Shown here: positions 1,568 to 25,707 of the stretch, one piece after another
Layout: every line of letters begins with the position of its first letter
Position numbering within the stretch: position 1 is the first letter of the stretch
Source of the DNA: a virus
Virus record (IMG/VR): IMGVR_UViG_3300025759_000610
Coordinates: 1-26,025 of that record
Reading direction: 5' to 3' (one strand)
DNA: 26,025 bases
The notes under the pieces: generated by a model
Seen by the model: the letters and a program-made list of their open reading frames with translations, nothing else
What the model was told of the DNA's origin: nothing
Databases searched by the model: none
Translations under genes and position numbers: made by a program

Positions 1568-3809
1568 AGACGATTACGAATACGAGAAAGACTCAAAGAA
1601 AGAGTATGGCGAAGAAGTCTATGACTCTAGCAAGTATGATGATCACGAATATGTTTCAAACCTTCTGTCTGCGTCTCAGGAAGCAGACCAAGACCTGCGA
1701 GATAATGCTCGTGAGGCGATCTTGTTCGTTAATAAACGAGACGGTCAATGGGAGCCTTACTGGTATAACAATGCCGCTGAGAGTAAGTCTCCTCGCTACA
1801 CCTTTGACATGGTTAATCCGATCATTGATCAAGTTTGTTCGGAGATTGAGCAGGCGTCCTTTGATATATCTGTGTCTCCTTCTGGCGGCAACAGCACAAA
1901 GAGCATAGCCAACACTTATTCAGGTATTGTTCGCAACATCGAAGCCATGTCTGATGCCAGTGAGGTCTATAACCATGCAGCAAAAATGATGGTTACTTCA
2001 GGCTTTGGCGCATGGCGTGTTGTACATAAGTATGTAAGTCATGACAGTTTTGACCAAGATCTATTTATTGAGCCTATTGGCAACTCTATAGACCGTGTGT
2101 GGTTCGATCCAGCAGCAGAGAAGCAAGACAAGTCTGACAGCCGTTACTGCTTTGTGCTTCACGCAATTGGCAAAGATGAGTATGAAAGGCGATGGCCTGA
2201 AGGCTCTGGTGAATCAGTTGATGAAGGCCGTGACGGCGAGGCTTACTTTGATAAAGCCGAAGTAGTCGTAATCGGTGAGTTGCTGTATTGCGAAGAGGAA
2301 GAACGCGAGCTGGTCTTGATGTCTAATGGGCAGGTTCACGAGGCTGATGATGACTTTAAAAAGATAGCTGATGAGCTTGAATCTATTGGCGTGACAGAGG
2401 TACGCAGGCGCAAGCGTGTCAAAAAGTCGGTATGTTCACGGTTATTTGACGCTAGTGATTGGCTCGAAGAGAAGAAAGAGACAGTCTTCACTATGATTCC
2501 TGTTGTGCCTATCTACGCCAACTACAAGATCTTTGAGAACAAAACTATCTTCTGGGGACTCGTAGAGAAGCTGATGGACTCACAGCGAGTGCTGAACTAC
2601 TCAGTCAGCCGTGAGGTAGCTGAGACTAGCCTTGCGCCAAGATCTAAGTATTGGATGACAATGAGTCAGGCAGCAGGTCATGAAGAGTCATTGCAGACTC
2701 TCAACACCAATCACGATCCAGTTCAATTCTTTAACGTAGATCCAGAGTTTCCGCAGGTTCCACAGCAGCAAGGCGGCGCACAGGTAAACCCAGCGTTGCG
2801 CACAATGTCTGAGGCCATGCGAGGCATGATTACTTACGCCTCTGGGATGTTCTCCAGCAACATGGGTGACAATCCACAGAACCAATCTGGCGTGGCAATC
2901 AACGCACTGCAGAACAAAGGCGACAACTCTACAGTTAAATACTTCAAAGCCTTGGAGTATGGCATTCGCGCCACTGGTCGCATCTTGGTGTCGTCTATTC
3001 CTCAAATCTATGACTCAGCTCGCACTGTAAGGCTGCTGAAGGAAGATAACACCTATGACGTAGCTGACATCAACCAGAAGGTTATAGACCAACAAACAGG
3101 CGATGTGGTGACTGTCAATGACCTGTCAGTCGGCAACTATGACGTACAGGTTAAGGCTGGTGCGAGCTTCAAGAATCGTCAGCAAGAAACCATTGAGACG
3201 ATCATTGAGATTGCCAAGGTTGATCCAAGCATTCTTCAGATCGCTGGTGATGTCCTGCTAGACAACGTAGCCACTGCCTCGGCTCAGCAGATCTCTGATC
3301 GCAAGCGAGCGCAGATGATAGCCGCTGGCCTGATACCTCAAGATCAGATGACAGAAGAAGAGCTGATGGCGGCTCAGCAGCAGATGACTGAAGGCCAACA
3401 GCAGCAAGATCCAAATATGGTTCTAGCTCAGGCAGAGCAGATGAAAGCTCAGGCTGAGATGCTGAGAGCGCAGATAGAGCAGGCCAAGCTACAGAATGAG
3501 CAGATGAAGCTACAGCTCGAAGCTCAGAAGCTCCAGACGCAGATGCAAGGCGATCAGGCTGATAACCAGATTGACTTCTTCAACGCCGAAACGAAGCGCA
3601 TGGAAACTCAGATCAAAGCTCAGCAGGCAGGCGCTACGATTGACAAGACAAGCGCTCAAGCAATAGGTGAGCAGCTTAACAACCAAGAGAAGATGGCTGA
3701 CATCACTGACAGGCAACGTGCAGAGGCAGAGCGTATGCGAGCCGAAGCTCAGCGCCGAGCCATGCGGTTTATGTCTGACTCTGAGATAGCGAGAATGCAG
3801 AATGGCTGA
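1560..3809 (+). CDS. P22-like portal protein
   Basis: The portal is a dodecameric ring at one capsid vertex through which DNA enters and leaves, and on which the tail is built. The 749-residue product matches the P22 gp1 class in size (725) and in position between terminase and scaffold. A central region around residues 330-450 (FWGLVEKLMDSQRVLNYSVS, then NPALRTMSEAMRGM) is typical of P22-type portals. From about residue 600 to the end it is a Gln/Met/Ala-rich, highly charged helix with repeated AQ and EQ steps, matching the C-terminal barrel helices that extend into the head in P22. I chose ATG 1560 because GGAAG lies four bases upstream; an in-frame TTG at 1530 and GTG at 1545 would add ten or five residues but lack a ribosome site. 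It overlaps terminase by 8 bases and the next gene by 8. Confidence 0.93.
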   Translation: MDKDDYEYEKDSKKEYGEEVYDSSKYDDHEYVSNLLSASQEADQDLRDNAREAILFVNKRDGQWEPYWYNNAAESKSPRYTFDMVNPIIDQVCSEIEQASFDISVSPSGGNSTKSIANTYSGIVRNIEAMSDASEVYNHAAKMMVTSGFGAWRVVHKYVSHDSFDQDLFIEPIGNSIDRVWFDPAAEKQDKSDSRYCFVLHAIGKDEYERRWPEGSGESVDEGRDGEAYFDKAEVVVIGELLYCEEEERELVLMSNGQVHEADDDFKKIADELESIGVTEVRRRKRVKKSVCSRLFDASDWLEEKKETVFTMIPVVPIYANYKIFENKTIFWGLVEKLMDSQRVLNYSVSREVAETSLAPRSKYWMTMSQAAGHEESLQTLNTNHDPVQFFNVDPEFPQVPQQQGGAQVNPALRTMSEAMRGMITYASGMFSSNMGDNPQNQSGVAINALQNKGDNSTVKYFKALEYGIRATGRILVSSIPQIYDSARTVRLLKEDNTYDVADINQKVIDQQTGDVVTVNDLSVGNYDVQVKAGASFKNRQQETIETIIEIAKVDPSILQIAGDVLLDNVATASAQQISDRKRAQMIAAGLIPQDQMTEEELMAAQQQMTEGQQQQDPNMVLAQAEQMKAQAEMLRAQIEQAKLQNEQMKLQLEAQKLQTQMQGDQADNQIDFFNAETKRMETQIKAQQAGATIDKTSAQAIGEQLNNQEKMADITDRQRAEAERMRAEAQRRAMRFMSDSEIARMQNG

Positions 3810-5841
3810 ACCAAGGTATAGGTATGGAGGAGACAGCGCCATAGGTGCGTTGCTCCTGCCTGCACGCCGAGAGATTCTACGAGATGAGCAAAACCAGTTC
3901 ATTGGCTATGATGATCAAGGCAATGCCATTATTCAGACAATACCTGCCAAATATGGAGAGTCTGAAGTAGACATCTCATACAGTCCTATAGTCAGAGGCG
4001 CTAAAGCTACTGGTTCTTTCCTTAATGACATCTTCTTTGGTGATGCTAACGAGCAGTCACAAGCTGCTGGTAGAGCTGTCAGTGCGATCCGTGGAGCTAT
4101 AGAAGGTCTAGGAGACTATGCCTCTGGTCAGTATGAGGCTGGCATGGCAGGCGGCACTATTTATGATCCTGAGACTCGGCAGATAACTGAGTTTGATCCT
4201 ACGGCAGTAATGGTTAGCGGCGCTCCTGCTGGTATTCAGGCCGCAAGGAACACTCCTAGCAATCAAGTAATTTTTGGCACAATGGGAAGCAAAACAGCCA
4301 ACTATACTCCTGACCAAAGAAGAGTAATGGATGAGCTTGAAAGGCAAGGAATGGATACTGAGAATCTATTCTTGCATGGCACATCTGATGATATAAGACA
4401 GCCAACATCTATCAAAACAAGCTTTAGAGATTCTGGATGGCTAGGAGAAGGTTTTTACGGCGCTACGCCAGAAGGTTCTAGAATATCTGATTACTATGCA
4501 AATACAGCAACTCCCAGATTTAGGAATGAAGCAGGAGACTACAGTGAGCCTAATGTTTTTCCATATATAACAAGGCGTGGAAACTATAAGCAGTATTCTT
4601 TAATGGACAAGGCTGGGATGGGCATTGTTGCTCAAATGAATCCCAACTACAGTAAAAAATTAACTCAAAAAAATATAGATGAAGGATTTATAGGTGCTGA
4701 AGTAGTTGATGCAGATGGAAACATCGTTGAAAGAGTTAACTATTTCCCAGATACGGATACACGCTCGGCTCTTAACTACGACATTACTGATTTATACTCA
4801 GGCGGCGGCAGGCAAGGCTCTGTTATTGCTGGAGGCTCGGCTTTGCGTGAGTCTTTCCGTATTGGAGATGAAGGCTTTGATCCAAGGTTCGATGACCGAT
4901 CAAGAGAGCAACAGCGTATATTAGATACAGAACTGGTGTATGAAGGCTCGCCTATAGTGCGTCCAGAAGTAAGCATTTTTGACTATGAAGGAAAGCCATT
5001 CAGAATAACTATGGCAGACAGGACAAAAGCTGGATCTCGCCTCACTGGAGTAGAAGGCGTTGATTATGACTTGCCTGTAGAGCTGCAAGGAGGCCAAGAC
5101 TTTATGTTTGCTAACCCAGCAGGCAGAGAAGGACAGGTCTGGGCGCAAGACAGAGGAGCGACATCAGCTTTCTTAAACTCATTTTTAGGATTAGATGGCA
5201 AACCGATAGCTGATGAAATACTCATGTTACCTTACCGAATGGCTCCAAGTGGTGGAGACTTTTCCACTATGACAGGAGAGGTAATGGTTACTCATGCTCG
5301 AAATGCTGTATCAAAGAAAGAAAAACGTAAAGCAGACAAGACTATTAAAGAATTTTATCCAGCTTGGAAAGGAATAGATAATCCTGAAAGCATAGACCAG
5401 ATCAGAGAAATGACAGGCGATCTAAGAAAGTCTTTATTACAAGTTATGGATAGAGATCTAAGAGATGAAGGTGGATTAGGCATAGGCCAAGCTAGGCTCG
5501 CTGTTACTGATCGCGCTCAATATAATGCGCCAGACTTCAATCTGCAAAATGTTGGTATTGCAAATCCATATGGGAATTCAAGGTTTGAAGTTTCTGGTCA
5601 TCGCACTTATGGTCAAGGATTAGCTGGCAGACCTGAAGGCATATTGAGAGAGCAAGACATAAATGTATTTGAGTTAATGCCTGATCTAGTAAGCGCAAGA
5701 GGATTTGACAGCGTTGATTCTTTGCTGAGAGCTGATCCAGCTACGTTAGCGAAAGAGCAATATACGTTGCGCCGAGGTACTAGAGGCGGTGTAATAACTG
5801 AAGAAATGTTGAGAGATATAGAGGCTCGTAGAGCGCAGTAA
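3802..5841 (+). CDS. Polyvalent head-region protein with an ADP-ribosyltransferase-like domain
   Basis: A 679-residue protein between portal and scaffold, where P22 has no gene. Residues about 190-330 carry ADP-ribosyltransferase-like signatures: HGT at 192-194 after a short beta strand, GWLGEGFY at 212-219 followed by a helix ending DYYA, then PNVFPYITRRGN, and TRSALNYD at 320-327. These resemble the H-Y-x class NAD-binding motifs and the IRSxxAxFD-like tail of ART domains in phage MuF and polyvalent proteins (family knowledge). Residues about 417-450 (VDYDLPVELQGGQDF, then VWAQDRGA) resemble another domain found in large phage polyvalent proteins. No signal peptide or membrane segment is seen. 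The N-terminal 150 residues are probably a virion-targeting part (inference). DNA coding the ART-like part is visibly richer in A+T than the portal gene or this gene's own 5' end, suggesting acquisition. A packaged, injected effector is the likeliest role. Confidence 0.62.
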   Translation: MAEPRYRYGGDSAIGALLLPARREILRDEQNQFIGYDDQGNAIIQTIPAKYGESEVDISYSPIVRGAKATGSFLNDIFFGDANEQSQAAGRAVSAIRGAIEGLGDYASGQYEAGMAGGTIYDPETRQITEFDPTAVMVSGAPAGIQAARNTPSNQVIFGTMGSKTANYTPDQRRVMDELERQGMDTENLFLHGTSDDIRQPTSIKTSFRDSGWLGEGFYGATPEGSRISDYYANTATPRFRNEAGDYSEPNVFPYITRRGNYKQYSLMDKAGMGIVAQMNPNYSKKLTQKNIDEGFIGAEVVDADGNIVERVNYFPDTDTRSALNYDITDLYSGGGRQGSVIAGGSALRESFRIGDEGFDPRFDDRSREQQRILDTELVYEGSPIVRPEVSIFDYEGKPFRITMADRTKAGSRLTGVEGVDYDLPVELQGGQDFMFANPAGREGQVWAQDRGATSAFLNSFLGLDGKPIADEILMLPYRMAPSGGDFSTMTGEVMVTHARNAVSKKEKRKADKTIKEFYPAWKGIDNPESIDQIREMTGDLRKSLLQVMDRDLRDEGGLGIGQARLAVTDRAQYNAPDFNLQNVGIANPYGNSRFEVSGHRTYGQGLAGRPEGILREQDINVFELMPDLVSARGFDSVDSLLRADPATLAKEQYTLRRGTRGGVITEEMLRDIEARRAQ

Positions 5842-12053: not shown

Positions 12054-12621
12054 GTTAGTAAAATCACTATTTGGCGGCGAGTCTGATGAAGGGATCGAAC
12101 GTCAGGAGAAGTCTAATCAACTCCTTAGAGACTTTCTTGCTCGCCAAGAGGCTTTAGGCCGTGCTGACATTAGAAAGTCTATGCCGAGCCAGTATGGAGC
12201 TGTAACTGCTGGTCAGCAAGCTGGCTTAGACATTTATGGTCAGGCGATGCCGCAACAGGCGCAGGCTTTTGTAGGCGGAAACGTAGCCGCACAGCAAGCG
12301 CTTCTGTCTGGTATGCCAATGTTTGAACAAGCTATTCGTGGCGGCAATATAGATTACTCTGCTTTGCAGCCATACCAAGGCAGCTATGATATGTCTTTTA
12401 CTCAGCAGCAGTTGCCTGATGCGGTGGCAAATCCTGCGTATCTAGCTGAGGCAACAACGCTTGATCCGGTTATGCAGCACCTAACTCCTGAGTATCGCAA
12501 TCAGCAAGCACAGATGATGCAAATGGGCGGTCAGCCTCAAAATCAAACAGCAAACGCACTTGGCGGTATGGGCATTGATGAAGCAGCCTTAGCTGAGTTT
12601 ATGGCAATGGGGCGATACTAA
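12046..12621 (+). CDS. Putative small ejection-apparatus protein, 191 residues
   Basis: A Gln-, Ala- and Met-rich protein that opens with SKLVKSLFGGESDEGIERQE and continues with a helix of Arg, Gln and Glu (QLLRDFLARQEALGRADI). A middle segment, QAGLDIYGQAMPQQAQAF and GNVAAQQALLSGMPMFEQAI, is the kind found in short proteins preceding DNA-transfer proteins in marine podoviruses (from memory). The last 60 residues are low in complexity and rich in Gln and Met. It is the first of four consecutive helical proteins between the hub region and the fibre, where P22 has gp14, gp7, gp20 and gp16. A packaged ejection role is inferred from this place and composition. It joins the next gene by TAATG. Confidence 0.6.
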   Translation: MSKLVKSLFGGESDEGIERQEKSNQLLRDFLARQEALGRADIRKSMPSQYGAVTAGQQAGLDIYGQAMPQQAQAFVGGNVAAQQALLSGMPMFEQAIRGGNIDYSALQPYQGSYDMSFTQQQLPDAVANPAYLAEATTLDPVMQHLTPEYRNQQAQMMQMGGQPQNQTANALGGMGIDEAALAEFMAMGRY

Positions 12622-15600
12622 TGATTAGACAATCTGACGATCAAATACTAGCTAACTCATTATTATCTGGAATTCCGCAATTTGGGCGCAATCAAGGCGT
12701 TAATAGCGGAATGCCTGTTATGGGAGATGGAAGATTTGGCGGTGGCGTTGGTCAAGTAGGTGGTGATCCGAGAGATCCTATAGGCCAGATAAATCGTCTA
12801 AGACAGGCTAATCAACCGATTCCTGAGTCACTGCAAAGAGCGGCGTTCCAATTTGCTGCTGCTAACAACTTAGACGCTGACCAATTATCAAAAAGGTTAG
12901 GAGTCTCTGTTAGTGATATATCTCAAGCCGCTCAAGGTCTTGGTATTCAAGATCAGTTGCCTTCTTCTTTGGGTGGCACTGGTTTTGGTGAGCAAGCACA
13001 ACAAGCAGCTTTCGCAGCCCAGCAAAACGATCCAGCTATGGCGGAGCTTCAGGCTTTAGGACAGCAAATACAATCTCTTTCTCCTAACGATCCTCAAAGA
13101 GCTGCTTTGCAACAACGATACGAGTCTATTGGTAGCGGTATAAACCAAAGAGCGCAAGCTGTACAACAGCAAACTTTACAATCTTTACAGCAAGGCCAAG
13201 GTGCAGGACAAGCAGGCAGTGCAGGACAAGGATCTACGCAGCAAACAGGACTTCAGAGAGTTGCTGATTATATTGCTCAAGGAAATAGGTCTGATCAAGA
13301 CATTTACCGAGAAATGGTAAAAAACGACGTTTCTGTAGAGGCAATGGCTGGTCAGCTTGGAGTCCCTGTTGATGAGGCTACTTCTCGCTATACACGCGCT
13401 CAAGAGTTGTCGCAGATAGAGGACATCGTAGCTGGCGGAATAGAACAAGCCAGAAGAGACTTTCCAAATGGTATTCCTGACAATCTTTTAAGACGCTATG
13501 CCACAGAGTCAGGACAGTCGTTAGAACAAATAGCGACTAACATGGATAATTTTGGCGTATCTCCTGACGATATGTCTCGTGCTACAGGCATTCCTCTGTC
13601 TGAAGTTCAAAACGCTTATACTGCGGCTAAGGGTGGTGGCACTACAGCCACAGGTACAGGAGCTGGAGACGCAGGAGCAAATACCAATCAAGTAGCCTCG
13701 ACTACCGCAGCCGCAGGAAGAGCTGGCTCTGGTGGTATGACAGGACTATCTGGCGCTGAAAGAGCATTGGGAGGCGGCCTTACGGCAGCGGCTGGAGCGG
13801 TAGAAGCTGGCGCTCAGCAAGCTCGCCAAGATGTAATAGGTGGCACTGACTTAGCAAGGCAAGACTTAGCTGTAGGCGCTGAGCAAGCTGCTGGAGCAAT
13901 AGGTGGAAGCGTTGATCAAGGCTTAAATGCTTTGACCGCTGGACTTTCTGGCGGTCAGCAAAATATCCAACAAGGCACTCAGCAAGGCTTACAGGCTTTG
14001 ACTGCTGGTTTACTAGGCGGTCAACAGAATGTAGAGCAAGGCACTCAACAAGGTTTGCAAGCGCTAAATCAGGCTTTAGGAACTGGACGCCAAGATATAT
14101 CTCAATCTGTTAATCAAGGTCTTGGTGTTTTAGGCCAAGGTTTAGCTTCAGGCAGGCAGGATGTTGCGTCAGGCACTCAAGCTGGATTAGCTGCTCTTGG
14201 TCAGGCTTTGGGAGTTGGCAGAGGCGATATAGCTACCGGAACTCAAGCTGGATTAGCTGCTCTAGGGCAAGGCTTGGGAGTTGGTAGAGGAGACATAGCC
14301 ACTGGAACTCAAGCAGGCTTGGCCGCTCTAGGTCAGGGTCTTGGAACAGCTCGTGGCGACATCGCCTCTGGCGCTCAAGCTGGCCTTCAGTCATTGGAAC
14401 AAGGATTAGCCACTGGAAGAGGAGACATACAATCAGGCACTCAAGCTGGTATTGATGCCTTATCTCGTGGTGTAGACACTGCTCGTGGCGATATTGCTTC
14501 TGGACGAGAAGCTGGACTTGCTGCTCTAAGCCAAGGTCTTGGCACAGCTCGACAAGACATAAGAGCTGGCACTCAACAAGGATTACAAGCTCTTGCAGGA
14601 GGAGTTGCTGGCGCTAGAACGGATTTAGCTACAGGCGCTGAGCTTGGAATGAGAGACCTTACAGCAGGTCTTGGAGCGGCTAGACAAGACCTTACGACAG
14701 GCCAAGGCACTGCGATGGGTCAGCTTCAATCTGGTATTGGAGAGACTCAACAAGCTCGTGAATTAGCATCTCAGCAAGTAGCTCAAGGATTTGGTCAAGC
14801 TGGTCAGATGTTTGATCCTTATCGTCAGGTAGGAAGTCAGGCTTTACAACAGCAAGCTGCTTTATCTGGAGCATTAGGTCAGGAAGCGTTTAATCAAGCA
14901 TTCCAAGCAAGTCCAGCACAACAGTTCTTGCGTGAAGAAGGCGAAAGAGCTGCTTTAAGAACAGCGGCTGCTAGAGGTGGTTTAGGCGGCGGTAATGTAA
15001 TGAAAGAGCTTGCTAGGTTTAACACTGGCCTTGCTGCTCAAGATTTACAAAATCAGATAGGTAATTTGCAACAATTAACTGGTCAAGGTCTTGGAGCTTC
15101 TGGAAGTGCGGCGCAATTAGCGGCACAAGCTGGGACAAGTCAAGCAGACATTCAAAGACAAGCGGCTCAACAAATTGCTGCCCAGCGAGGCCAAATGGCT
15201 GGCGTAGCTACAGATATAGGTCAGCAACTTGCTGGCTTAGGTGTGACACAGGGTCAAGCTGGTCTTCAAACTCAAACCCAGAGAGCGCAACAGCAGGCTG
15301 AGTTAGCTTCAATGGCTGGTCAACAAGGTCTACAAGCCATGCTATCTCAAGGTCAGCAACTTGGTCAGATAGGCACTACTGAAGCTACGCAAGCATTACA
15401 AGCTCAACAAAGAGCAGCAGAACAAGCGGCTCAATTTGCTTATAGCGGAGCCGGACAAGAGTTGCAAGCGCAGCAAAGAGCGGCAGAACAATCAGCTCAA
15501 TTAGCTTCTCAGGCAGCAGCTCAACGAGCAGCGGCACAACAGGCAGCAGCTCAACAAGCGGCTCAATTTGCCTTTAATGCTGGTGGACAGTCTCAACAAG

Positions 15601-16481
15601 CTCTGCAAGACGCAGCGATGGCTTCTGGACAGATGGCCTATGGTGCTGGCGGACAGTCTCAACAAGCTCTTCAAAACGCAGCAATGGCTTCTGGACAGAT
15701 GGCTTATGGAGCAGGTGGACAAGGTTTACAAGCTCTTCAGCAAGCTGGTTTAACCTCTGGGCAGATGGGAATGACCGCAGGCCAGCAAGGTCTTCAGGCT
15801 ATAACTGGTGCTGGAAGTGAAATGGGTCAAATGGCTTATGGCGCTGGTGGTCAGGGTTTGCAAGCTCTTCAAAACATGGGTCAAATTACAGGCCAAATGG
15901 CCTATGGCGCAGGAGGTCAAGGACTTCAGGCGTTACAAGGTATGGGCAGCGAAATGGGTCAGATGGCTTACGGCGCTGGAGGTCAAGGTCTTAACGCAAT
16001 GTTGGGCGCAGGAAGAAGTGTTGCTGATATACTTAGCGGCAGGTCTATTGCTCAAGCTAACCTTGCTTCAAGAGCTGGAAGTGAACTAGGCGCGATAAGC
16101 CAAGGCGGTGCTGGAAACATAGCGAGCATGATGTATGGCACAGGTCAGAATTTAGCTAATAACCGAATGATGGCTGGTCAGAACATTGCTAACAATATAC
16201 AAGCACAGATAGCTGCTCTTTCAAATCTTGCGAACCAGCAAGGCGCTGGAATGTCTGATATGTACGGCAATCAAGCTGGAATCCTTGCAGGTCAGCAGAT
16301 AGGCGCAGGCGCTAATATGGGTAACATGATCGGAAACACGGCTGGTCAGTTGGCAGGAATAGCCACAGGCAACAATTACACGCCACAAGGTACAGGTCAA
16401 ACTACTCAAGTTTCTGGAATATTGAATAGAGCGCAAGGTCAAAACGGAAATATTGCAGGAGCTATTCTTGGCAACCTTTAA
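12621..16481 (+). CDS. Large DNA-transfer (ejection) protein with two 22-residue repeat arrays
   Basis: A 1286-residue Ala/Gln/Gly-rich protein, almost entirely helical in character. Residues 1-430 hold Gln-rich helices and several degenerate helical units with a DISQAAQGLG / DVSVEAMAGQLGV / DDMSRATGIPLSEVQ pattern. Residues 430-693 are twelve 22-residue repeats. Residues about 730-850 are non-repetitive and contain MFDPYRQVGSQALQQQAALS, SPAQQFLREEGERAALRTAA and RGGLGGGNVMKELARFNTGL, a conserved block seen in phage proteins annotated as DNA transfer or ejection proteins. Residues 984-1137 are seven further 22-residue repeats with a GQMAYGAGGQ core. The end is Gly/Asn/Ala-rich, including GNMIGNTAGQLAGIATGNN. 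It probably leaves the head and helps form a conduit across the envelope. It is much longer than P22 gp20 (471) or gp16 (609). Confidence 0.75.
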   Translation: MIRQSDDQILANSLLSGIPQFGRNQGVNSGMPVMGDGRFGGGVGQVGGDPRDPIGQINRLRQANQPIPESLQRAAFQFAAANNLDADQLSKRLGVSVSDISQAAQGLGIQDQLPSSLGGTGFGEQAQQAAFAAQQNDPAMAELQALGQQIQSLSPNDPQRAALQQRYESIGSGINQRAQAVQQQTLQSLQQGQGAGQAGSAGQGSTQQTGLQRVADYIAQGNRSDQDIYREMVKNDVSVEAMAGQLGVPVDEATSRYTRAQELSQIEDIVAGGIEQARRDFPNGIPDNLLRRYATESGQSLEQIATNMDNFGVSPDDMSRATGIPLSEVQNAYTAAKGGGTTATGTGAGDAGANTNQVASTTAAAGRAGSGGMTGLSGAERALGGGLTAAAGAVEAGAQQARQDVIGGTDLARQDLAVGAEQAAGAIGGSVDQGLNALTAGLSGGQQNIQQGTQQGLQALTAGLLGGQQNVEQGTQQGLQALNQALGTGRQDISQSVNQGLGVLGQGLASGRQDVASGTQAGLAALGQALGVGRGDIATGTQAGLAALGQGLGVGRGDIATGTQAGLAALGQGLGTARGDIASGAQAGLQSLEQGLATGRGDIQSGTQAGIDALSRGVDTARGDIASGREAGLAALSQGLGTARQDIRAGTQQGLQALAGGVAGARTDLATGAELGMRDLTAGLGAARQDLTTGQGTAMGQLQSGIGETQQARELASQQVAQGFGQAGQMFDPYRQVGSQALQQQAALSGALGQEAFNQAFQASPAQQFLREEGERAALRTAAARGGLGGGNVMKELARFNTGLAAQDLQNQIGNLQQLTGQGLGASGSAAQLAAQAGTSQADIQRQAAQQIAAQRGQMAGVATDIGQQLAGLGVTQGQAGLQTQTQRAQQQAELASMAGQQGLQAMLSQGQQLGQIGTTEATQALQAQQRAAEQAAQFAYSGAGQELQAQQRAAEQSAQLASQAAAQRAAAQQAAAQQAAQFAFNAGGQSQQALQDAAMASGQMAYGAGGQSQQALQNAAMASGQMAYGAGGQGLQALQQAGLTSGQMGMTAGQQGLQAITGAGSEMGQMAYGAGGQGLQALQNMGQITGQMAYGAGGQGLQALQGMGSEMGQMAYGAGGQGLNAMLGAGRSVADILSGRSIAQANLASRAGSELGAISQGGAGNIASMMYGTGQNLANNRMMAGQNIANNIQAQIAALSNLANQQGAGMSDMYGNQAGILAGQQIGAGANMGNMIGNTAGQLAGIATGNNYTPQGTGQTTQVSGILNRAQGQNGNIAGAILGNL
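13908..14699 (+). repeat. Array of twelve 22-residue (66-bp) coding repeats
   Basis: Residues 430-693 of the 1286-residue protein repeat exactly every 22 residues without a length change. The core is [GS]-[TAV]-x-x-G-L-x-A-L at positions 1-9, then G or A at 11-12, L at 13, R-x-D-[IVL] at 17-20. Units near 14170-14370 are the most alike. Hydrophobic residues fall in an amphipathic-helix spacing of about 11 residues. Imperfect partial units precede the array at about 13800-13907. Confidence 0.92.
15570..16031 (+). repeat. Second array of seven 22-residue (66-bp) coding repeats
   Basis: Residues 984-1137 of the same protein repeat every 22 residues. The core is A-Y-G-A-G-G-Q-[GS]-x-Q-A-L-Q, ending in G-Q-M. 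Unit four starts with G-M-T-A and the last unit drifts to N-A-M-L and A-D-I. The period equals that of the first array although the consensus differs. It is flanked on the left by an Ala/Gln-rich stretch at about 15390-15569. Confidence 0.92.
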
Positions 16482-19669: not shown

Positions 19670-22600
19670 ATGGCTAGATTCGGTGAAATTAACGCACAAT
19701 ACTTTGATGACGCTGGAGATCCGCTTGGCAGTGGCAAGTTGTATTTTTACGACTCAGGCACTACTACGCCAAAAGTCACCTATTCTGATATTAACTTAAC
19801 GATTCCAAACACGAATCCAGTTATATTGACTGCGGCAGGACGCCAGCCAAACATATTTTTTAACGGTAACGCCAAAGCAATATTAGCTGACAAGAATGAT
19901 GTTCAGATTCTTGTAAGAGATCCTGTAGGTGAAACAGGAACTAACTTTGGTGATCCTTGGGTAGCTACTAAAATTTACTCATCAAATGCAGTTGTTATTG
20001 GCAGCGATGGGGTTTATTACAGATCGCTCGATAGCGGAAATCAAAACAATAATCCAACCACTACATCAGGCTTTTGGACTTTATTATATTCAGTAGATTG
20101 GAACTCTGGCATTACATATCAAACTGGAGCAATGGTTACTGTTGATGGTGAGCAATATCAGTCTTTACAGGATAGCAATCTAGGAAACGATCCTACAACA
20201 TCTCCAGCCTATTGGGTTCTTTTGAGTTTTGCTTGGCTTGCCACGGCTACTTATGCAGAAGATCAAAATGCTGTAGGAACTGATGGTGTTTTATATACAT
20301 CGCTACAGAACTCAAACACTGGCAACGATCCAACAACTTCTCCTGCTTACTGGGTAGGCACTTCAGCGGCAGCGGCAGCGAGTGCAACAGCAGCGGCAAC
20401 GTCTGCAACCAATGCGGCAACTTCTGCTTCAAACGCTTCTACCTCCGCAACTAATGCGGCTACTTCAGAGACCAATGCAAGCAACTCTGCAACGGCTGCG
20501 GCTACATCTGCAACTAACGCTGCTGAAAGTGCTGCTTCTGCTGCTGCTACTGCGGGCGCTGCTCTATGGGTAAGTGGACAAACATACAACGCTGGTGATG
20601 CTGCAATATCTTTAATTAACTTTCAGACATATAGAGCTGAAATTACAACTAGCGGAACTACTGATCCAAGTGCCGATGCGAACTGGACAAAACTCGGCTA
20701 TTCACTGCCAAGCCAAACAGGAAATTCAGGCAAGTTTTTGACAACAGATGGATCTAATGAAAGCTGGGGAATAGTTAATACGGACTCAACGCTCGGCACA
20801 CTAACCAAGACTTTCACAACTGGTGAGTCCTCTACCATCAATCTCACAAGCTCAGTGCTTGCGCCAGTGGTCAGTGTGACTAAAGAAGTTCCACAGTCAG
20901 GAGTGACTAACAACTCTTGGGATGTTAATTCTACTACAGAGAATTACACGCGATTGGATAGTGCTGCTGCGACTACTTTGAACTTTGAGGCTTTTGATGT
21001 ATCTACCGCATCGTTTACTGATAGTTTTTCAGTGTCCGCACAAGAATCAGGCACTGCAACTGGAATTGCATTCAATAACGATGGCACTAAAATGTATATG
21101 ATTGGTTATACTGGAGATTCAGTGTATCAATATGATTTATCTACTGCTTTTGATACATCTACTTCAAGTTATGTTCAGAGTTTTTCAATAGCGGCACAAG
21201 AATCAGATTCTTATGGGGTAATATTTAGTGCTGACGGCACAAAGATGTTTGTTGTTGGCTCGGTAGGCAACGATATAATTGAATATATTTTATCTACTGC
21301 ATTTGACATTTCTACTGCTACATTTAATCAGACTCTAAGTACATCGGCTAATATATCTTTCCCAATTTGTATAGCGTTTAACAATGACGGAACAAAAATG
21401 TTTGTTGGCGATAATACTGGAGCAAAGATAAATGAATACTCTTTATCAACTGCTTATAACATCTCAACTGCTACCCATGTTCAATTTATAAGCATTACAA
21501 CACAAGATTCAACTTTAAGAGGTATTGCTTTTAATGCTGATGGAAGCAAATTGTTTGCTATTGGCCTTGCCAACTATAGTGTCTATCAATATTCATTATC
21601 TACTCCATTTGATATTTCTACATATTCGTATGTTAAAAGTTTTTCGTATTTTGCTCAGGGTAATAACGGAATAGATTTAAAATTTAATACCGACGGAACG
21701 AAGATGTACATAATTGATGGAACTTCTTCTAATGTAAATGAATATGCTCTGCCACCTGCTTCACTAGCACTCGGCACAGGCTCATTCGCCTCAGCAGACG
21801 TAGGCAAGACCATCGAAGCTAACTCAGGTGTGTTTGTCTTAATAGCCACAGACGGTTCGTTTGAACAGACTACAGCACCTACATCATATGACCAAGTAGC
21901 CTCCGGTGACTGGAGTATGTACGGTGTTGTCTATAATGTTGCGGATGGTGACTTAGAATTAAGCTATGGAATTATAGATAAATACGATATTTCTACTGCT
22001 GTTTATTCTCAGAGCTTTAATGTTGTTGCTCAAGAAACAGCGCCAACTGGAATTTTCTTTAAACCAGATGGGACTAAAATGTATATTTCTGGAGATACTG
22101 GAAATGACATAAACGAATATGACTTGACTACTGCGTTTGATGTTTCTACTGCTTCATTTTTACAATCTTTCTCAGTATCAGGACAAGAAGGCAATGTACA
22201 AGATGTAACGTTTAGCCCAGACGGAACAAAGATGTTTATTGTTGGCTTCGCTCAAGACAATGTTCATAGATATTTATTATCAACGGCTTGGGATGTTTCT
22301 ACTGCTTCTTATTCTCAGACTTATTCAGTTGCAGGACAAGAGGTAACGCCAACCGGAATAACATTTAACACAGACGGCACAACAATGTTTATTATTGGTA
22401 CGGCTTCACCAGTAGACGTTAATCAATACGCATTAAGTACAGGTTTTGATTTAACATCGGCGTCATATACTGGGGCTTTTTCTGTAATTAATGAGTTTAG
22501 CGCACCGCAGGGATTAGTATTTAATTCTACTGGAACTAAGATGTTCGTCATTGGTTCAAGCACAGATCGAATTGGAGAATATTCGCTAACTACACCTTTT

Positions 22601-24109
22601 TCCGTTATTAGTGGTGTTAGTATTGTTCAATTTTTTGACGTATCGAATGAAGGAAGCAATCCTAAAGGCTTAACTTTTAACTCTGACGGAACAAAAATGT
22701 TTGTTATTGATAACTCTCGTGATGTTAATCAATACTCAGTAGGAACAAAATTAACTCCTACAGGCTACCATCCAGTACACACCACAAACTCAATAGACTC
22801 TACCTACTGGACTGACATCAACTCGATGACAGCAGACCAAGCCGCAGGTGACGGCAATGTCTACTACGCTATCTCTACAGACGACAGAACAACGTGGACT
22901 GTTATTGATAACACAGATGGCGAGAGAGATATTGTCAGGAACAACGGTGGTACTTGGCAGTACAACTCTAACGGCACATACGCTTCAGAGACTTGGACTA
23001 ACGGCACAACTAACACAGAGTTAGCTACGTTGGCTGAGGCTATGGAAGGTGCTAGTACAGTTGTTGGCTTTGGTGTTTTAACAGCAACTTTTGTTGATAG
23101 CTTTAGTGTAGCATCACAAGAAACTCTGCCAATGGGCGTGGCGTTTAGTGCAGATGGCACTAAAATGTTTATTGTTGGCGAAAGTGGAGGAGATGTAAAC
23201 GAATATACTCTGTCTACGGGATTTGATGTATCTACTGCTAGTTTTGTTGATAGTTTTGTTGTTAGCAGTCAAGACAATGCTCCATTAGGATTAGCATTTA
23301 ATGCAGATGGAACTACGATGTTTATTATTGGTGATACTAATAATACTGTATACCAATACACATTATCTGTCGGATTTGACGTATCAACAGCATCTTATGC
23401 TTCTAAAAGTTTTAATGTTTCATCACAGGAAACAAATCCAACAGGAATAACATTTAACACAACTGGCACTAAGATGTTTATTGTTGGAATAAACGGAGAT
23501 TCTGTATATGAATATTCGCTGTCTATTGGCTTTGACGTATCAACAGCATCTTATGTCACTAGCTTTAGTGTTGCAGCGCAAGAAACATCGCCGCAAGATG
23601 TAGCGTTTAACACTGACGGAACGAAGATGTTTGTTGTTGGTCAAACAGGGCAAGATGTAAACGAGTACACGTTATCAACTGGCTTTGATGTTTCAACAGC
23701 AGTTTTTGTTGATAGTTTTTCAGTATCCGCACAAGAAACGCTTCCAAATGGAATAGCATTTAATACAAACGGCACTAAGATGTTTATTGTTGGTCAAACA
23801 GGAGACGATGTAAACGAGTACATAACAGGAAGTACAATCTACCAAAACCAGATGGACAAAACGCAACTAGACGCAGTAACAGACCCGAACCACATAGCCT
23901 TGGGTAACGATCTTGATCTAGCGATAGTCCTCAACATGACATCAGGTTCTACAGTGCCTTCGTCAGACGGCGTAGCAATTAACTACGATGCTAACGTGTT
24001 GAACAAAGGTGCTGTCTTAGGAACTGACTATGACTTTGATGCTCCTGCTCAGGACAAGGTAAGGATTACAGCCTTGGTAGGGAATAACTTGAAGGTTCGA
24101 GTGGTTTAA
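19670..24109 (+). CDS. Tail fibre with carbohydrate-binding-like modules and 15 propeller-like repeats
   Basis: A 1479-residue receptor-binding protein. Residues 1-95 (FGEINAQYFDDAGDPLGSGK, then LYFYDSGTTTPK and NTNPVILTAAGRQPNIF) are a fibre/tailspike head-binding domain. Four modules of about 45 residues begin at Trp97, Trp144, Trp189 and Trp300 with a W-x(5)-Y-x-x-G-x(2)-V-x(4)-x-Y-x-S ... P-x(4)-x-W pattern, like type 5/12 chitin-binding modules. A seven-heptad Ala/Ser/Thr stalk lies between modules three and four. Three blocks of five F-N-x-D-G-T-K-M-F-x-x-G repeats follow (residues 442-694, 772-1024, 1134-1385), separated by non-repeat segments. The last 95 residues (DKTQLDAVTDPNHIALGNDL, then DGVAINYDANVLNKGA, ending NLKVRVV) match fibre ends I know from marine phages. 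The start has AGGA upstream and follows the previous stop by one base. The protein probably acts as a trimer at the tail (inference). Confidence 0.85.
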   Translation: MARFGEINAQYFDDAGDPLGSGKLYFYDSGTTTPKVTYSDINLTIPNTNPVILTAAGRQPNIFFNGNAKAILADKNDVQILVRDPVGETGTNFGDPWVATKIYSSNAVVIGSDGVYYRSLDSGNQNNNPTTTSGFWTLLYSVDWNSGITYQTGAMVTVDGEQYQSLQDSNLGNDPTTSPAYWVLLSFAWLATATYAEDQNAVGTDGVLYTSLQNSNTGNDPTTSPAYWVGTSAAAAASATAAATSATNAATSASNASTSATNAATSETNASNSATAAATSATNAAESAASAAATAGAALWVSGQTYNAGDAAISLINFQTYRAEITTSGTTDPSADANWTKLGYSLPSQTGNSGKFLTTDGSNESWGIVNTDSTLGTLTKTFTTGESSTINLTSSVLAPVVSVTKEVPQSGVTNNSWDVNSTTENYTRLDSAAATTLNFEAFDVSTASFTDSFSVSAQESGTATGIAFNNDGTKMYMIGYTGDSVYQYDLSTAFDTSTSSYVQSFSIAAQESDSYGVIFSADGTKMFVVGSVGNDIIEYILSTAFDISTATFNQTLSTSANISFPICIAFNNDGTKMFVGDNTGAKINEYSLSTAYNISTATHVQFISITTQDSTLRGIAFNADGSKLFAIGLANYSVYQYSLSTPFDISTYSYVKSFSYFAQGNNGIDLKFNTDGTKMYIIDGTSSNVNEYALPPASLALGTGSFASADVGKTIEANSGVFVLIATDGSFEQTTAPTSYDQVASGDWSMYGVVYNVADGDLELSYGIIDKYDISTAVYSQSFNVVAQETAPTGIFFKPDGTKMYISGDTGNDINEYDLTTAFDVSTASFLQSFSVSGQEGNVQDVTFSPDGTKMFIVGFAQDNVHRYLLSTAWDVSTASYSQTYSVAGQEVTPTGITFNTDGTTMFIIGTASPVDVNQYALSTGFDLTSASYTGAFSVINEFSAPQGLVFNSTGTKMFVIGSSTDRIGEYSLTTPFSVISGVSIVQFFDVSNEGSNPKGLTFNSDGTKMFVIDNSRDVNQYSVGTKLTPTGYHPVHTTNSIDSTYWTDINSMTADQAAGDGNVYYAISTDDRTTWTVIDNTDGERDIVRNNGGTWQYNSNGTYASETWTNGTTNTELATLAEAMEGASTVVGFGVLTATFVDSFSVASQETLPMGVAFSADGTKMFIVGESGGDVNEYTLSTGFDVSTASFVDSFVVSSQDNAPLGLAFNADGTTMFIIGDTNNTVYQYTLSVGFDVSTASYASKSFNVSSQETNPTGITFNTTGTKMFIVGINGDSVYEYSLSIGFDVSTASYVTSFSVAAQETSPQDVAFNTDGTKMFVVGQTGQDVNEYTLSTGFDVSTAVFVDSFSVSAQETLPNGIAFNTNGTKMFIVGQTGDDVNEYITGSTIYQNQMDKTQLDAVTDPNHIALGNDLDLAIVLNMTSGSTVPSSDGVAINYDANVLNKGAVLGTDYDFDAPAQDKVRITALVGNNLKVRVV
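20363..20563 (+). repeat. Ala/Ser/Thr heptad stalk in the fibre
   Basis: Residues 232-298 of the fibre fall into heptads of the form S-[AE]-[TS]-[NA]-A-x-[TN], seven in succession near the right end. This is a short trimeric coiled-coil-like stalk of the type seen in lambda side fibres. Its low complexity creates long spurious frames on both strands. Confidence 0.75.
20993..21751 (+). repeat. Fibre repeat block 1 (five propeller-like repeats)
   Basis: Five repeats of about 50 residues (residues 442-694). Each has a [FY]-[DN]-[IVT]-S-T-x-[ST]-[FYH] start, a short strand with Q-E/D, then F-[NS]-x-D-G-[TS]-K-[ML]-[FY] and an N-E-Y-x-L or Y-Q-Y-x-L end. Repeat three has a one-residue-shorter F-V-G-D-N turn and repeat five ends in A-L-P-P. 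Confidence 0.9.
21983..22741 (+). repeat. Fibre repeat block 2 (five propeller-like repeats)
   Basis: Five further repeats (residues 772-1024), again 253 residues by my boundaries. The cores read F-K-P-D-G, F-S-P-D-G, F-N-T-D-G, F-N-S-T-G and F-N-S-D-G followed by T-[KT]-M-[FY]. The fourth and fifth are the most diverged (PFSVISGVSIVQFFDVSNEG). Confidence 0.9.
23069..23824 (+). repeat. Fibre repeat block 3 (five propeller-like repeats)
   Basis: The last five repeats (residues 1134-1385, 252 residues) are the most uniform, with GFDVSTASFVDSF-like starts and TKMFIVGQTG-like ends repeated with few changes. The first start is F-G-V-L-T-A-T-F and the last end runs into the C-terminal fibre domain. 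Confidence 0.9.
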
Positions 24110-24784: not shown

Positions 24785-25006
24785 ATGGAATACCAAATAA
24801 TTTTTAACGTAGGCATTGCTCTGGTAGGATTTATCGGAGGCTGGATGGTAAACCGTGTTTTTGTATTACTAGATAGAATAGACGCTGACATGAAAGCTAT
24901 TCCTATGCAGTATGTTGCTAAAGAAGATTACAGAGAAGATATACGCGAAATTAAAGAAATGCTTGGCGCAATATTTAAACGACTAGAGAGTAAGGCTGAC
25001 AAATGA
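24785..25006 (+). CDS. Small membrane-anchored protein, 73 residues (possible lysis accessory)
   Basis: Residues 3-28 (YQIIFNVGIALVGFIGGWMV) form one transmembrane helix with a G-x-x-G-G face. After it comes a charged amphipathic helix, AKEDYREDIREIKEMLGAIF and RLESKADK. One membrane helix followed by a short charged helix is seen in small holin-like, antiholin-like and spanin-like phage proteins, but nothing here separates these. The ATG lies one base after the upstream stop, and the end overlaps the lipase start (ATGA). Placement among lysis-region genes is the only functional clue. Confidence 0.6.
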   Translation: MEYQIIFNVGIALVGFIGGWMVNRVFVLLDRIDADMKAIPMQYVAKEDYREDIREIKEMLGAIFKRLESKADK

Positions 25007-25707
25007 AACTTGATCCTGTATTGCTAAACATGGCTTGTAGTTGGTCGATTAAGGCTTACAACGATGAGAACCGTGACGCTATAAAGATTGAGAACAAGCT
25101 AACTAGCGCTACTGCTTTTGTTGTAAAACGCAAGTCTATAGATATTATTGTCTTCAGAGGAACGCAGGAAAAGTTAGACATACTGACTGACCTTGCAGTA
25201 ATTCCAGTTCCTTACGTTAAACGCCTTTGCCATGCTGGCTTTGCTATGTCTCACAAATCTATCTGGGATGAGATAGAGAAACACATAGACTATGACAAGC
25301 GCACTCTCATCTGCGGTCACAGCCTTGGCGGCGCAATGGCAGAGCTTACTGCTGCTAAGCTAAACGGCAAACATGACAACTTAAATCTTATAACCTTTGG
25401 AAAGCCTAATGTTTTCTTTAAAGGTTTCAAGCGTCCTATGACTTTGGATAACCAGATATCAGTTGTTTCAGGTTCTGACATGGTGGCTCGTATGCCAAGG
25501 CTTTGTTACGGAGCTTCCAAGTCACAGACAATGCTGTACTTTGGTAATGACGGAATCAATCTAATTAATCCTAGCGCTTACGTTCGCAAGTTAGACCGTG
25601 GTGGATTAAAAGACCGTATAACTGATCATTTTATGGCAGGCTACAAAGAGAGATTAAAAGAATTTATTAAGGAGCAAAAGAATGCGAAGAATAATGATAG
25701 CGATTAG
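25003..25707 (+). CDS. Class 3 lipase-like alpha/beta hydrolase
   Basis: A 234-residue predicted esterase or lipase. It has the class 3 lipase pattern: DIIVFRGTQEKLDILTDLAV, in which F-R-G-T supplies the oxyanion region; the nucleophile elbow GHSLGGAMAEL with Ser107; LITFGKPNVF; the acid Asp159 in SGSDMVARMP; and His209 in TDHFMAGYKERL. All three catalytic residues are therefore in the expected order and spacing. No signal peptide is visible, so it would need a holin or fusion to leave the cytoplasm. It is set between small membrane proteins and a lipoprotein, so envelope lipid attack at lysis is the likely role; a change to host lipids during infection is an alternative. It overlaps its neighbours by 4 and 26 bases. 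Confidence 0.85.
   Translation: MKLDPVLLNMACSWSIKAYNDENRDAIKIENKLTSATAFVVKRKSIDIIVFRGTQEKLDILTDLAVIPVPYVKRLCHAGFAMSHKSIWDEIEKHIDYDKRTLICGHSLGGAMAELTAAKLNGKHDNLNLITFGKPNVFFKGFKRPMTLDNQISVVSGSDMVARMPRLCYGASKSQTMLYFGNDGINLINPSAYVRKLDRGGLKDRITDHFMAGYKERLKEFIKEQKNAKNNDSD

Follow-up and report, generated by a model that had tools for sequence, protein, structure and literature searches.

We consider it likely that the tail fibre or spike encoded in the window (the whole 26,025-nucleotide stretch of viral DNA analysed here) is built as a constant scaffold with sockets for exchangeable five-bladed propellers, which probably serve in receptor binding. In the proposed arrangement, an N-terminal tail anchor would be followed by a conserved C-terminal scaffold, PRE-S1-S2-C, with fixed sockets (1, 2 and 3a, or 3b in another group), into which a complete five-bladed propeller would be inserted in frame. 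The sockets, the empty sites, the occurrence of a different domain in one socket, the alternative site and the exchange of blocks are directly evident from the sequences compared here.

Organization of the fibre gene

The fibre gene and its parts are listed in Table 1, and a fibre identical in 1479 of 1479 residues is found at locus L007. The N-terminal 191 residues are 41% identical to a putative tailspike of Pseudoalteromonas phage H6/1, and the Ala/Ser/Thr-rich stretch of the N-terminal part is probably the fibre shaft. The first 100 residues of the window fibre stand beside the scaffold in only 7 of 109 related ORFs. Ahead of the Ala/Ser/Thr-rich shaft, at 19937-20360, there are three imperfect repeats of ~45 residues (…DG..Y.SL…NDPTTSP.YW), one of which weakly matches CBM_5_12 (E 0.0002 when this part is scanned, short of the curated cut-off).

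The preliminary description of this DNA had recognized three repeat blocks breaking up an older-looking fibre, and this was borne out: the fibre contains exactly 15 repeats of ~51 residues each, five in every block. The block edges given there hold approximately, but relatives with an empty site shift them by about 7-21 nt, and the approximate insert limits in Table 1 were set by us from such relatives. The spacers, previously read as one ordinary marine-phage fibre, are indeed common to many uncultured viral contigs and to the Roseobacter phages CRP-2, CRP-9, CRP-13 and CRP-738; they have no match in PHROGs or NCBIfam.

Table 1. Parts of the fibre gene in the window; limits of the three inserts are approximate.
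Feature	Position	Strand	Description or basis
Fibre gene	19670..24109	+	ORF of 1479 aa in the 26,025-base virus record
N-terminal part	19670..20794	+	Tail-anchor-like segment, repeats, Ala/Ser/Thr-rich stretch
Scaffold segment PRE (aa 376-439)	20795..20986	+	Profiles; S1 directly next in 25/114 relatives
Site 1 insert, propeller 1 (predicted five-bladed)	20987..21763	+	Five repeats; empty-site comparison L022/L026; AlphaFold2
Scaffold segment S1	21764..21964	+	Profiles
Site 2 insert, propeller 2 (predicted five-bladed)	21965..22756	+	Repeats, empty sites, AlphaFold2
Scaffold segment S2	22757..23053	+	Profiles
Alternative site 3b equivalent, empty in the window	22964..22978	+	Between GTWQYN and YASETW motif
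Site 3 (3a) insert, propeller 3 (predicted five-bladed)	23054..23845	+	Repeats, AlphaFold2, structure match
Scaffold segment C (C-terminus)	23846..24106	+	Profiles

The terminase and head-closure proteins of the window resemble those of P22/Sf6-type short-tailed phages; the terminase is 46% identical to that of Pseudomonas phage AH02 and 42% to that of Sf6, and the head-closure protein is 43% identical to that of Pseudoalteromonas phage H6/1. Elsewhere in the window, the gene of an ejection-type protein (12621-16481; PHROG 'DNA ejection') carries 66-base (22-residue) tandem repeats in two stretches at 13917-15739, a class 3 lipase-like gene lies downstream of the fibre (25003-25707; Pfam Lipase_3, E 3.6e-18), and a 679-aa protein encoded between the portal and scaffold-like genes (3802-5841) has no Pfam match at E 0.01.

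Empty and filled sites among relatives

Profiles of PRE, S1, S2, C and of the blade were run over the ORFs of the fetched loci, and the 441 matching ORFs were reduced to 138 non-redundant ones by removing exact overlaps; the rebuilt S2 profile also caught blades, and an S2 score of at least 55 was required for the final counts. Counted as sequences and not as events, because near-identical viruses from different samples were kept (e.g., L166/L167, L060/L063 and L495/L496), and at rates shaped by the choice of queries, several of them aimed at empty sites, and by keeping the best 80 loci per scan, site 1 held a propeller in 89 and was empty in 25 of 114 cases; of 119 cases at site 2, 108 had a propeller, 7 had another filling and 4 were empty; and site 3, with 3a and 3b pooled, held a propeller in 82 and was empty in 45 of 127.

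The spacers are hence contiguous in homologues at all three sites, contrary to the possibility, raised in the preliminary description, that they never occur in this way; the alignment with fibres missing the repeats that it had suggested places the gaps of empty-site relatives nearly at the block edges. In the first set of such relatives, the residual gaps were 5-10 aa between PRE and S1, 7-13 aa between S1 and S2, and 0-3 aa between S2 and C. In the best pair of an empty and a filled site 1 (L022 and L026), the flanks are 95% identical; the two share the 30 bases, as printed, ahead of the junction and a 24-base stretch just after it. Reading 11 empty/filled pairs by eye for traces of a mobile element revealed neither a target-site duplication nor element ends.

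Five recognized blades in each of three blocks, found in 49 of 109 ORFs, constitute the commonest architecture among relatives, and because it is also that of the window fibre, the insertions are judged to be old and not recent in this phage. No gene among 108 has all three sites empty; a wholly bare ancestor is for this reason something that we infer rather than see.

Not every filling is a propeller. A laminin-G/concanavalin-like domain occupies site 2 in L022, in L223 (CRP-738) and in L496 (E 1.1e-9, 2.2e-12 and 1.2e-17, respectively), L495 being nearly the same protein as L496, and site 2 of L500, L488 and L513 holds a filling other than a propeller. Additionally, at L284:1-4694, 25 blades in a row are followed by contiguous S1-S2-C, which looks as if five propellers had been stacked ahead of an otherwise bare scaffold.

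In CRP-2, CRP-9, CRP-13 and CRP-738, the third propeller lies about 25 residues earlier, at site 3b, and site 3a is uninterrupted; these assignments were made from the sequences and the state table of 108 scaffolds, not from a count of the 3b motif, which is also present inside propellers of CRP-13 and CRP-738. On a quick tree of the 108 scaffolds, with counts made by eye and a midpoint root used for drawing only, a clade of 78 genes (SH-aLRT 97) has 58 with site 3a filled and none with site 3b filled; of the 30 remaining genes, 14 have site 3b filled and none has site 3a filled. Site 1 is empty in 15/30 genes outside this clade versus 9/78 inside, and sites 1 and 3 are frequently empty in the more divergent scaffold genes. 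This tree calls for at least 11 changes at site 1, 6 at site 2 and 17 at site 3, numbers that do not give a direction.

These data bear on the alternative that the fibre had its blocks from the start and that they were lost secondarily where a site is now empty. The predominance of the three-block form fits such a history, and the numbers of changes on the tree cannot separate gain from loss; however, a third propeller at two different points (3a and 3b) calls for at least two gains or for an ancestor with both, and the divergent genes are often those empty at sites 1 and 3. We regard original blocks followed by deletion as unlikely. Insertion, as proposed in the preliminary description, is the reading that the compared genes support, with amendments; among these, the variant in which a single module was gained and then copied lacks recent support, as detailed below.

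Base composition of blocks and spacers

In the segments as originally drawn, the G+C content of the blocks is 0.337, 0.366 and 0.373, and that of the spacers and tail is 0.463, 0.474 and 0.457, with 0.444 in the part before 20980. The blocks had been described as A+T-rich and the spacers as richer in G+C, and this extends to synonymous sites: the contrast is not driven only by amino acids, because third-base G+C stratified by amino acid also differs between spacers and blocks (z = 6.3, p = 3e-10). Third-base G+C is 0.22 in the blocks, and as eight other window genes already span 0.26-0.55, this value is low rather than alien.

In the set of 84 related genes that have PRE, S1, S2 and C complete, the G+C content of the scaffold exceeds that of the blocks in 84, third-base G+C is higher in the scaffold in 83, and the stratified third-base test gives a z above 1.96 in 75. 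Uniform composition across the gene, which had been named as an observation that would speak against insertion, is thus contradicted by overall G+C, by the third-base tests and by the relatives. In 58 cellular proteins with the blades, third-base G+C is higher in the rest of the protein in 29 of 58 (median z 0.22); because these proteins show no consistent contrast, low G+C is not intrinsic to the blades, and the contrast, seen in the related genes and not in the cellular proteins, is taken to be real, old and specific to phage fibres. Composition was not accepted as proof of a foreign origin; the low G+C of the blocks may reflect either a shared A+T-rich pool or weaker constraint, both being possible.

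Exchange of whole blocks

Block identity does not follow backbone identity: over 942 gene pairs with a backbone identity of 0.75-0.95, the Spearman coefficients were -0.10, -0.01 and -0.05. The backbones of L034 and L038 are 99.6% identical, and their blocks 1, 2 and 3 are 97%, 70% and 63% identical; at the block edge, their DNA identity falls from the mid to high nineties to about 60-70%. Conversely, the DNA of blocks 2 and 3 is essentially 100% identical between L075 and L065, whereas their block 1 is only 44-75% identical per 16-codon step and their PRE differs; L075 and L081 likewise share essentially 100% identical DNA in blocks 2 and 3 with an unlike block 1 and PRE, and L011 and L019 have identical DNA in block 3 despite divergent backbones. 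In the isolates CRP-9 and CRP-2, nucleotide identity is 0.932, 0.930, 0.906 and 0.959 in PRE, S1, S2 and C, versus 0.573, 0.482 and 0.522 in blocks 1, 2 and 3. Segment C is conserved alongside PRE, S1 and S2, and variability sits in the internal blocks.

Judging from these comparisons, the present-day process is the exchange of whole blocks rather than new insertion. As identity changes sharply at the block edges, we infer that whole propellers may be swapped through recombination within the conserved scaffold DNA that flanks them. A rival account would explain the differences by rapid divergence of each block where it stands, driven by diversifying selection and with no exchange of whole blocks, and the concentration of variability on the loops of one propeller face (see below) would agree with it; it is quite unlikely, though, in view of the DNA-identical blocks in divergent backbones (L075/L065, L075/L081 and L011/L019), the abrupt identity steps at block edges and the missing correlation with backbone divergence. 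The mixing of blocks could also be an assembly artefact at conserved segments, given that the exchange cases come mostly from metagenome assemblies and that many loci are short contigs (e.g., L015 with 5101 bases and L031 with 5659 bases). We deem this very improbable: the complete genomes of CRP-9 and CRP-2, an isolate pair that serves as a safeguard, show the same pattern, likewise those of CRP-13 and CRP-738, and L075 and L065 come from contigs of over 23 kb from different metagenomes.

Across sites, the best block identity is 0.795 between different genes and 0.786 within the same gene, and same-site pairs reach 1.0; recent copying of one block to other sites was rejected on this difference. 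Single blades of different genes are 0.463 identical at the same site and index versus 0.455 at another site and index, and one common pool of blades would fit, because blades carry almost no signature of site or position. Within one gene, blades are slightly more alike (0.485-0.502), and blocks of sites 1 and 2 have a mean identity of 0.471 in the same gene versus 0.431 between genes; because of this slight excess, some within-gene homogenization is likely. A tree of all 15 repeats, which had been suggested earlier, does not settle three gains versus copying: with the L007 blades, no branch was supported, and forcing any block together was not rejected (p-AU 0.168, 0.416 and 0.159). For the same blades, identity within minus between blocks is 0.027 (permutation p = 0.02), driven by block 3.

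Predicted fold of the blocks

Residues 376-1479 of the window fibre were modelled with AlphaFold2 as a monomer from an alignment of 48 rows; starting from 84 complete genes, we listed 53 (three blocks, not near-identical), took out L388, L008 and four named records, and added the window. Each block was modelled as a domain in which every repeat has four strands and pLDDT is for the most part about 90 or higher, and is confidently predicted to be a five-bladed beta-propeller; five repeats per block and the predicted strands together give five consecutive four-stranded blades, and 199 phage blocks have exactly five recognized blades. The scaffold of the monomer has a pLDDT mostly below 50-70, and under 50 through much of S1, S2 and C. 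In an L022 model, with sites 1 and 3 empty, mean pLDDT was 40.7 with 19 rows.

Block 3 matches the fold of a solved propeller, the NHL domain of TRIM3 (VIA-align; Z 19.5, rmsd 3.5, 217 residues). The blade number rests on the repeat count, because the structure matches listed partly have six or more blades. Foldseek TM scores for the three-propeller model mean little, because this model consists of several loosely placed domains, and a PDB sequence search with block 3 gave weak matches only (E 0.0017 and above). Pfam SGL (SMP-30/gluconolactonase/LRE) scored 53.9 versus a cut-off of 26.3 when summed over the repeats, the best stretch covering 40 of 246 positions.

On both sides of block 1 (model residues 62-65 and 323-326) and of block 3 (754-757 and 1013-1016), the model has a short strand, and each such pair of strands may form a stem that carries the propeller. 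The chain would enter and leave the propeller at neighbouring points, and a propeller could thereby replace a turn and leave the scaffold undisturbed.

Putative function of the propellers

Over 199 blocks, with loop limits drawn by us from the predicted strands, the D-A and B-C loops have entropies of 2.38 and 2.95 bits, versus 1.32 and 1.17 bits in the loops opposite to them (p = 2.5e-4). In the usual nomenclature, D-A and B-C presumably denote loops of one and the same propeller face. In 41 related block pairs, differences per site amount to 0.322 in the loops of the variable face versus 0.082 in those of the conserved face.

Most likely, the propellers would bind the host surface, probably sugars, through the variable loops of one face; receptor binding appears the likeliest role because of the location in a fibre, the variable face, the laminin-G-like stand-in and the precedent of phage phi11. 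That the propellers are instead structural spacers or enzymes (lactonase-like or capsule-degrading) seems rather improbable. Weak Pfam matches to SGL and Lactonase would agree with an enzyme, but variability is confined largely to one face and its loops, a laminin-G/concanavalin-like domain can replace the propeller at site 2, and no enzyme signature came up in the general searches made.

CRP-2, CRP-9 and CRP-13 carry different propellers and were isolated on the same host strain, FZCC0023, so that the host strain is not simply dictated by which propellers a phage has. A scan of selected window genes gave no signs of a diversity-generating retroelement.

Blades outside the fibre family

In cellular proteins, mostly of SAR11 and other marine alphaproteobacteria, 83 blade runs have exactly five blades, one has ten, one has six and 58 are shorter, many of the last being cut by contig ends or diverged; no scaffold was found in these blade-bearing proteins. 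The five-blade unit is present, often as two to four propellers each, in very large proteins of SAR11, other marine alphaproteobacteria, Flavobacteria, Patescibacteria and archaeal bins (L389-L456). Lentibacter phage ICBM2 has one five-blade block in a separate protein of 403 aa that lacks the scaffold (L224:3276-4487).

We are evenly divided over a broader proposal, according to which the three or four sockets would draw on one pool of propellers that is also present in giant marine bacterial and archaeal proteins, and recombination within the constant segments would let the phages shuffle single propellers, giving a combinatorial receptor-binding fibre with up to three different binding specificities per chain.

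Comparison with known systems

The proteins closest in design are CRP-9 gp42, CRP-13 gp43, CRP-2 gp51 and CRP-738 gp33, annotated as 'hypothetical protein', which share the scaffold and the five-blade blocks with the window fibre and are 34-39% identical to it over 61-74% of its length. Unlike in the window, the third propeller of the CRP fibres is at 3b and not at 3a, and CRP-738 has the laminin-G-like domain at site 2. The word 'propeller' is absent from the accessible text of PMC8528129 and PMC6918029, and a published description of the architecture of the window fibre was not found in open PMC papers.

The receptor-binding protein Gp45 of staphylococcal phage phi11 has a five-bladed propeller in mid-chain with further domains after it, as described in the available portion of PMC4901313. 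As in the window fibre, where the propellers are predicted, it lies inside a phage tail fibre or spike protein; unlike the window fibre, Gp45 has one propeller per chain and belongs to a phage of a Gram-positive host. The same portion of PMC4901313 mentions neither exchange nor empty sites for Gp45, and block 3, searched against solved chains at E up to 0.1, has no sequence match to it. The distorted five-bladed propeller head of PRD1 P2 and the seven-bladed propeller of phiKZ gp131C, both named in that portion (PMC4901313), are likewise propellers in putative phage receptor-binding proteins, but each is a single propeller of other blade number or shape.

In the crAssphage tail-associated protein, the tandem repeats of BACON domains are an evolutionary hotspot according to the part of PMC6949934 available. 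This protein resembles the window fibre in having repeated domains in a phage tail protein; however, its domains are arranged in tandem, whereas those of the window fibre are predicted to be closed propellers in separate sockets.

Modular receptor-binding proteins keep the N-terminal anchor constant and vary in their distal part, just as the textbook phage fibre has a constant anchor and a variable tip. Such host-recognition proteins undergo domain exchange (compare PMC13082707 and PMC12692247), and the family of the window fibre, a putative host-recognition protein, does likewise. Unlike these proteins, however, this family does not confine variability to the C-terminal end: its C-terminus belongs with the best-conserved parts, and what varies are cassettes inside the chain. 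The fibre described here keeps its end constant and exchanges whole domains within the chain at fixed points, and sites that are naturally empty serve as controls. This accounts for a large group of 'hypothetical' marine phage genes, offers natural junctions for swapping domains without breaking the fibre, and makes it testable in cultured phages whether several binding domains per fibre widen host range additively.
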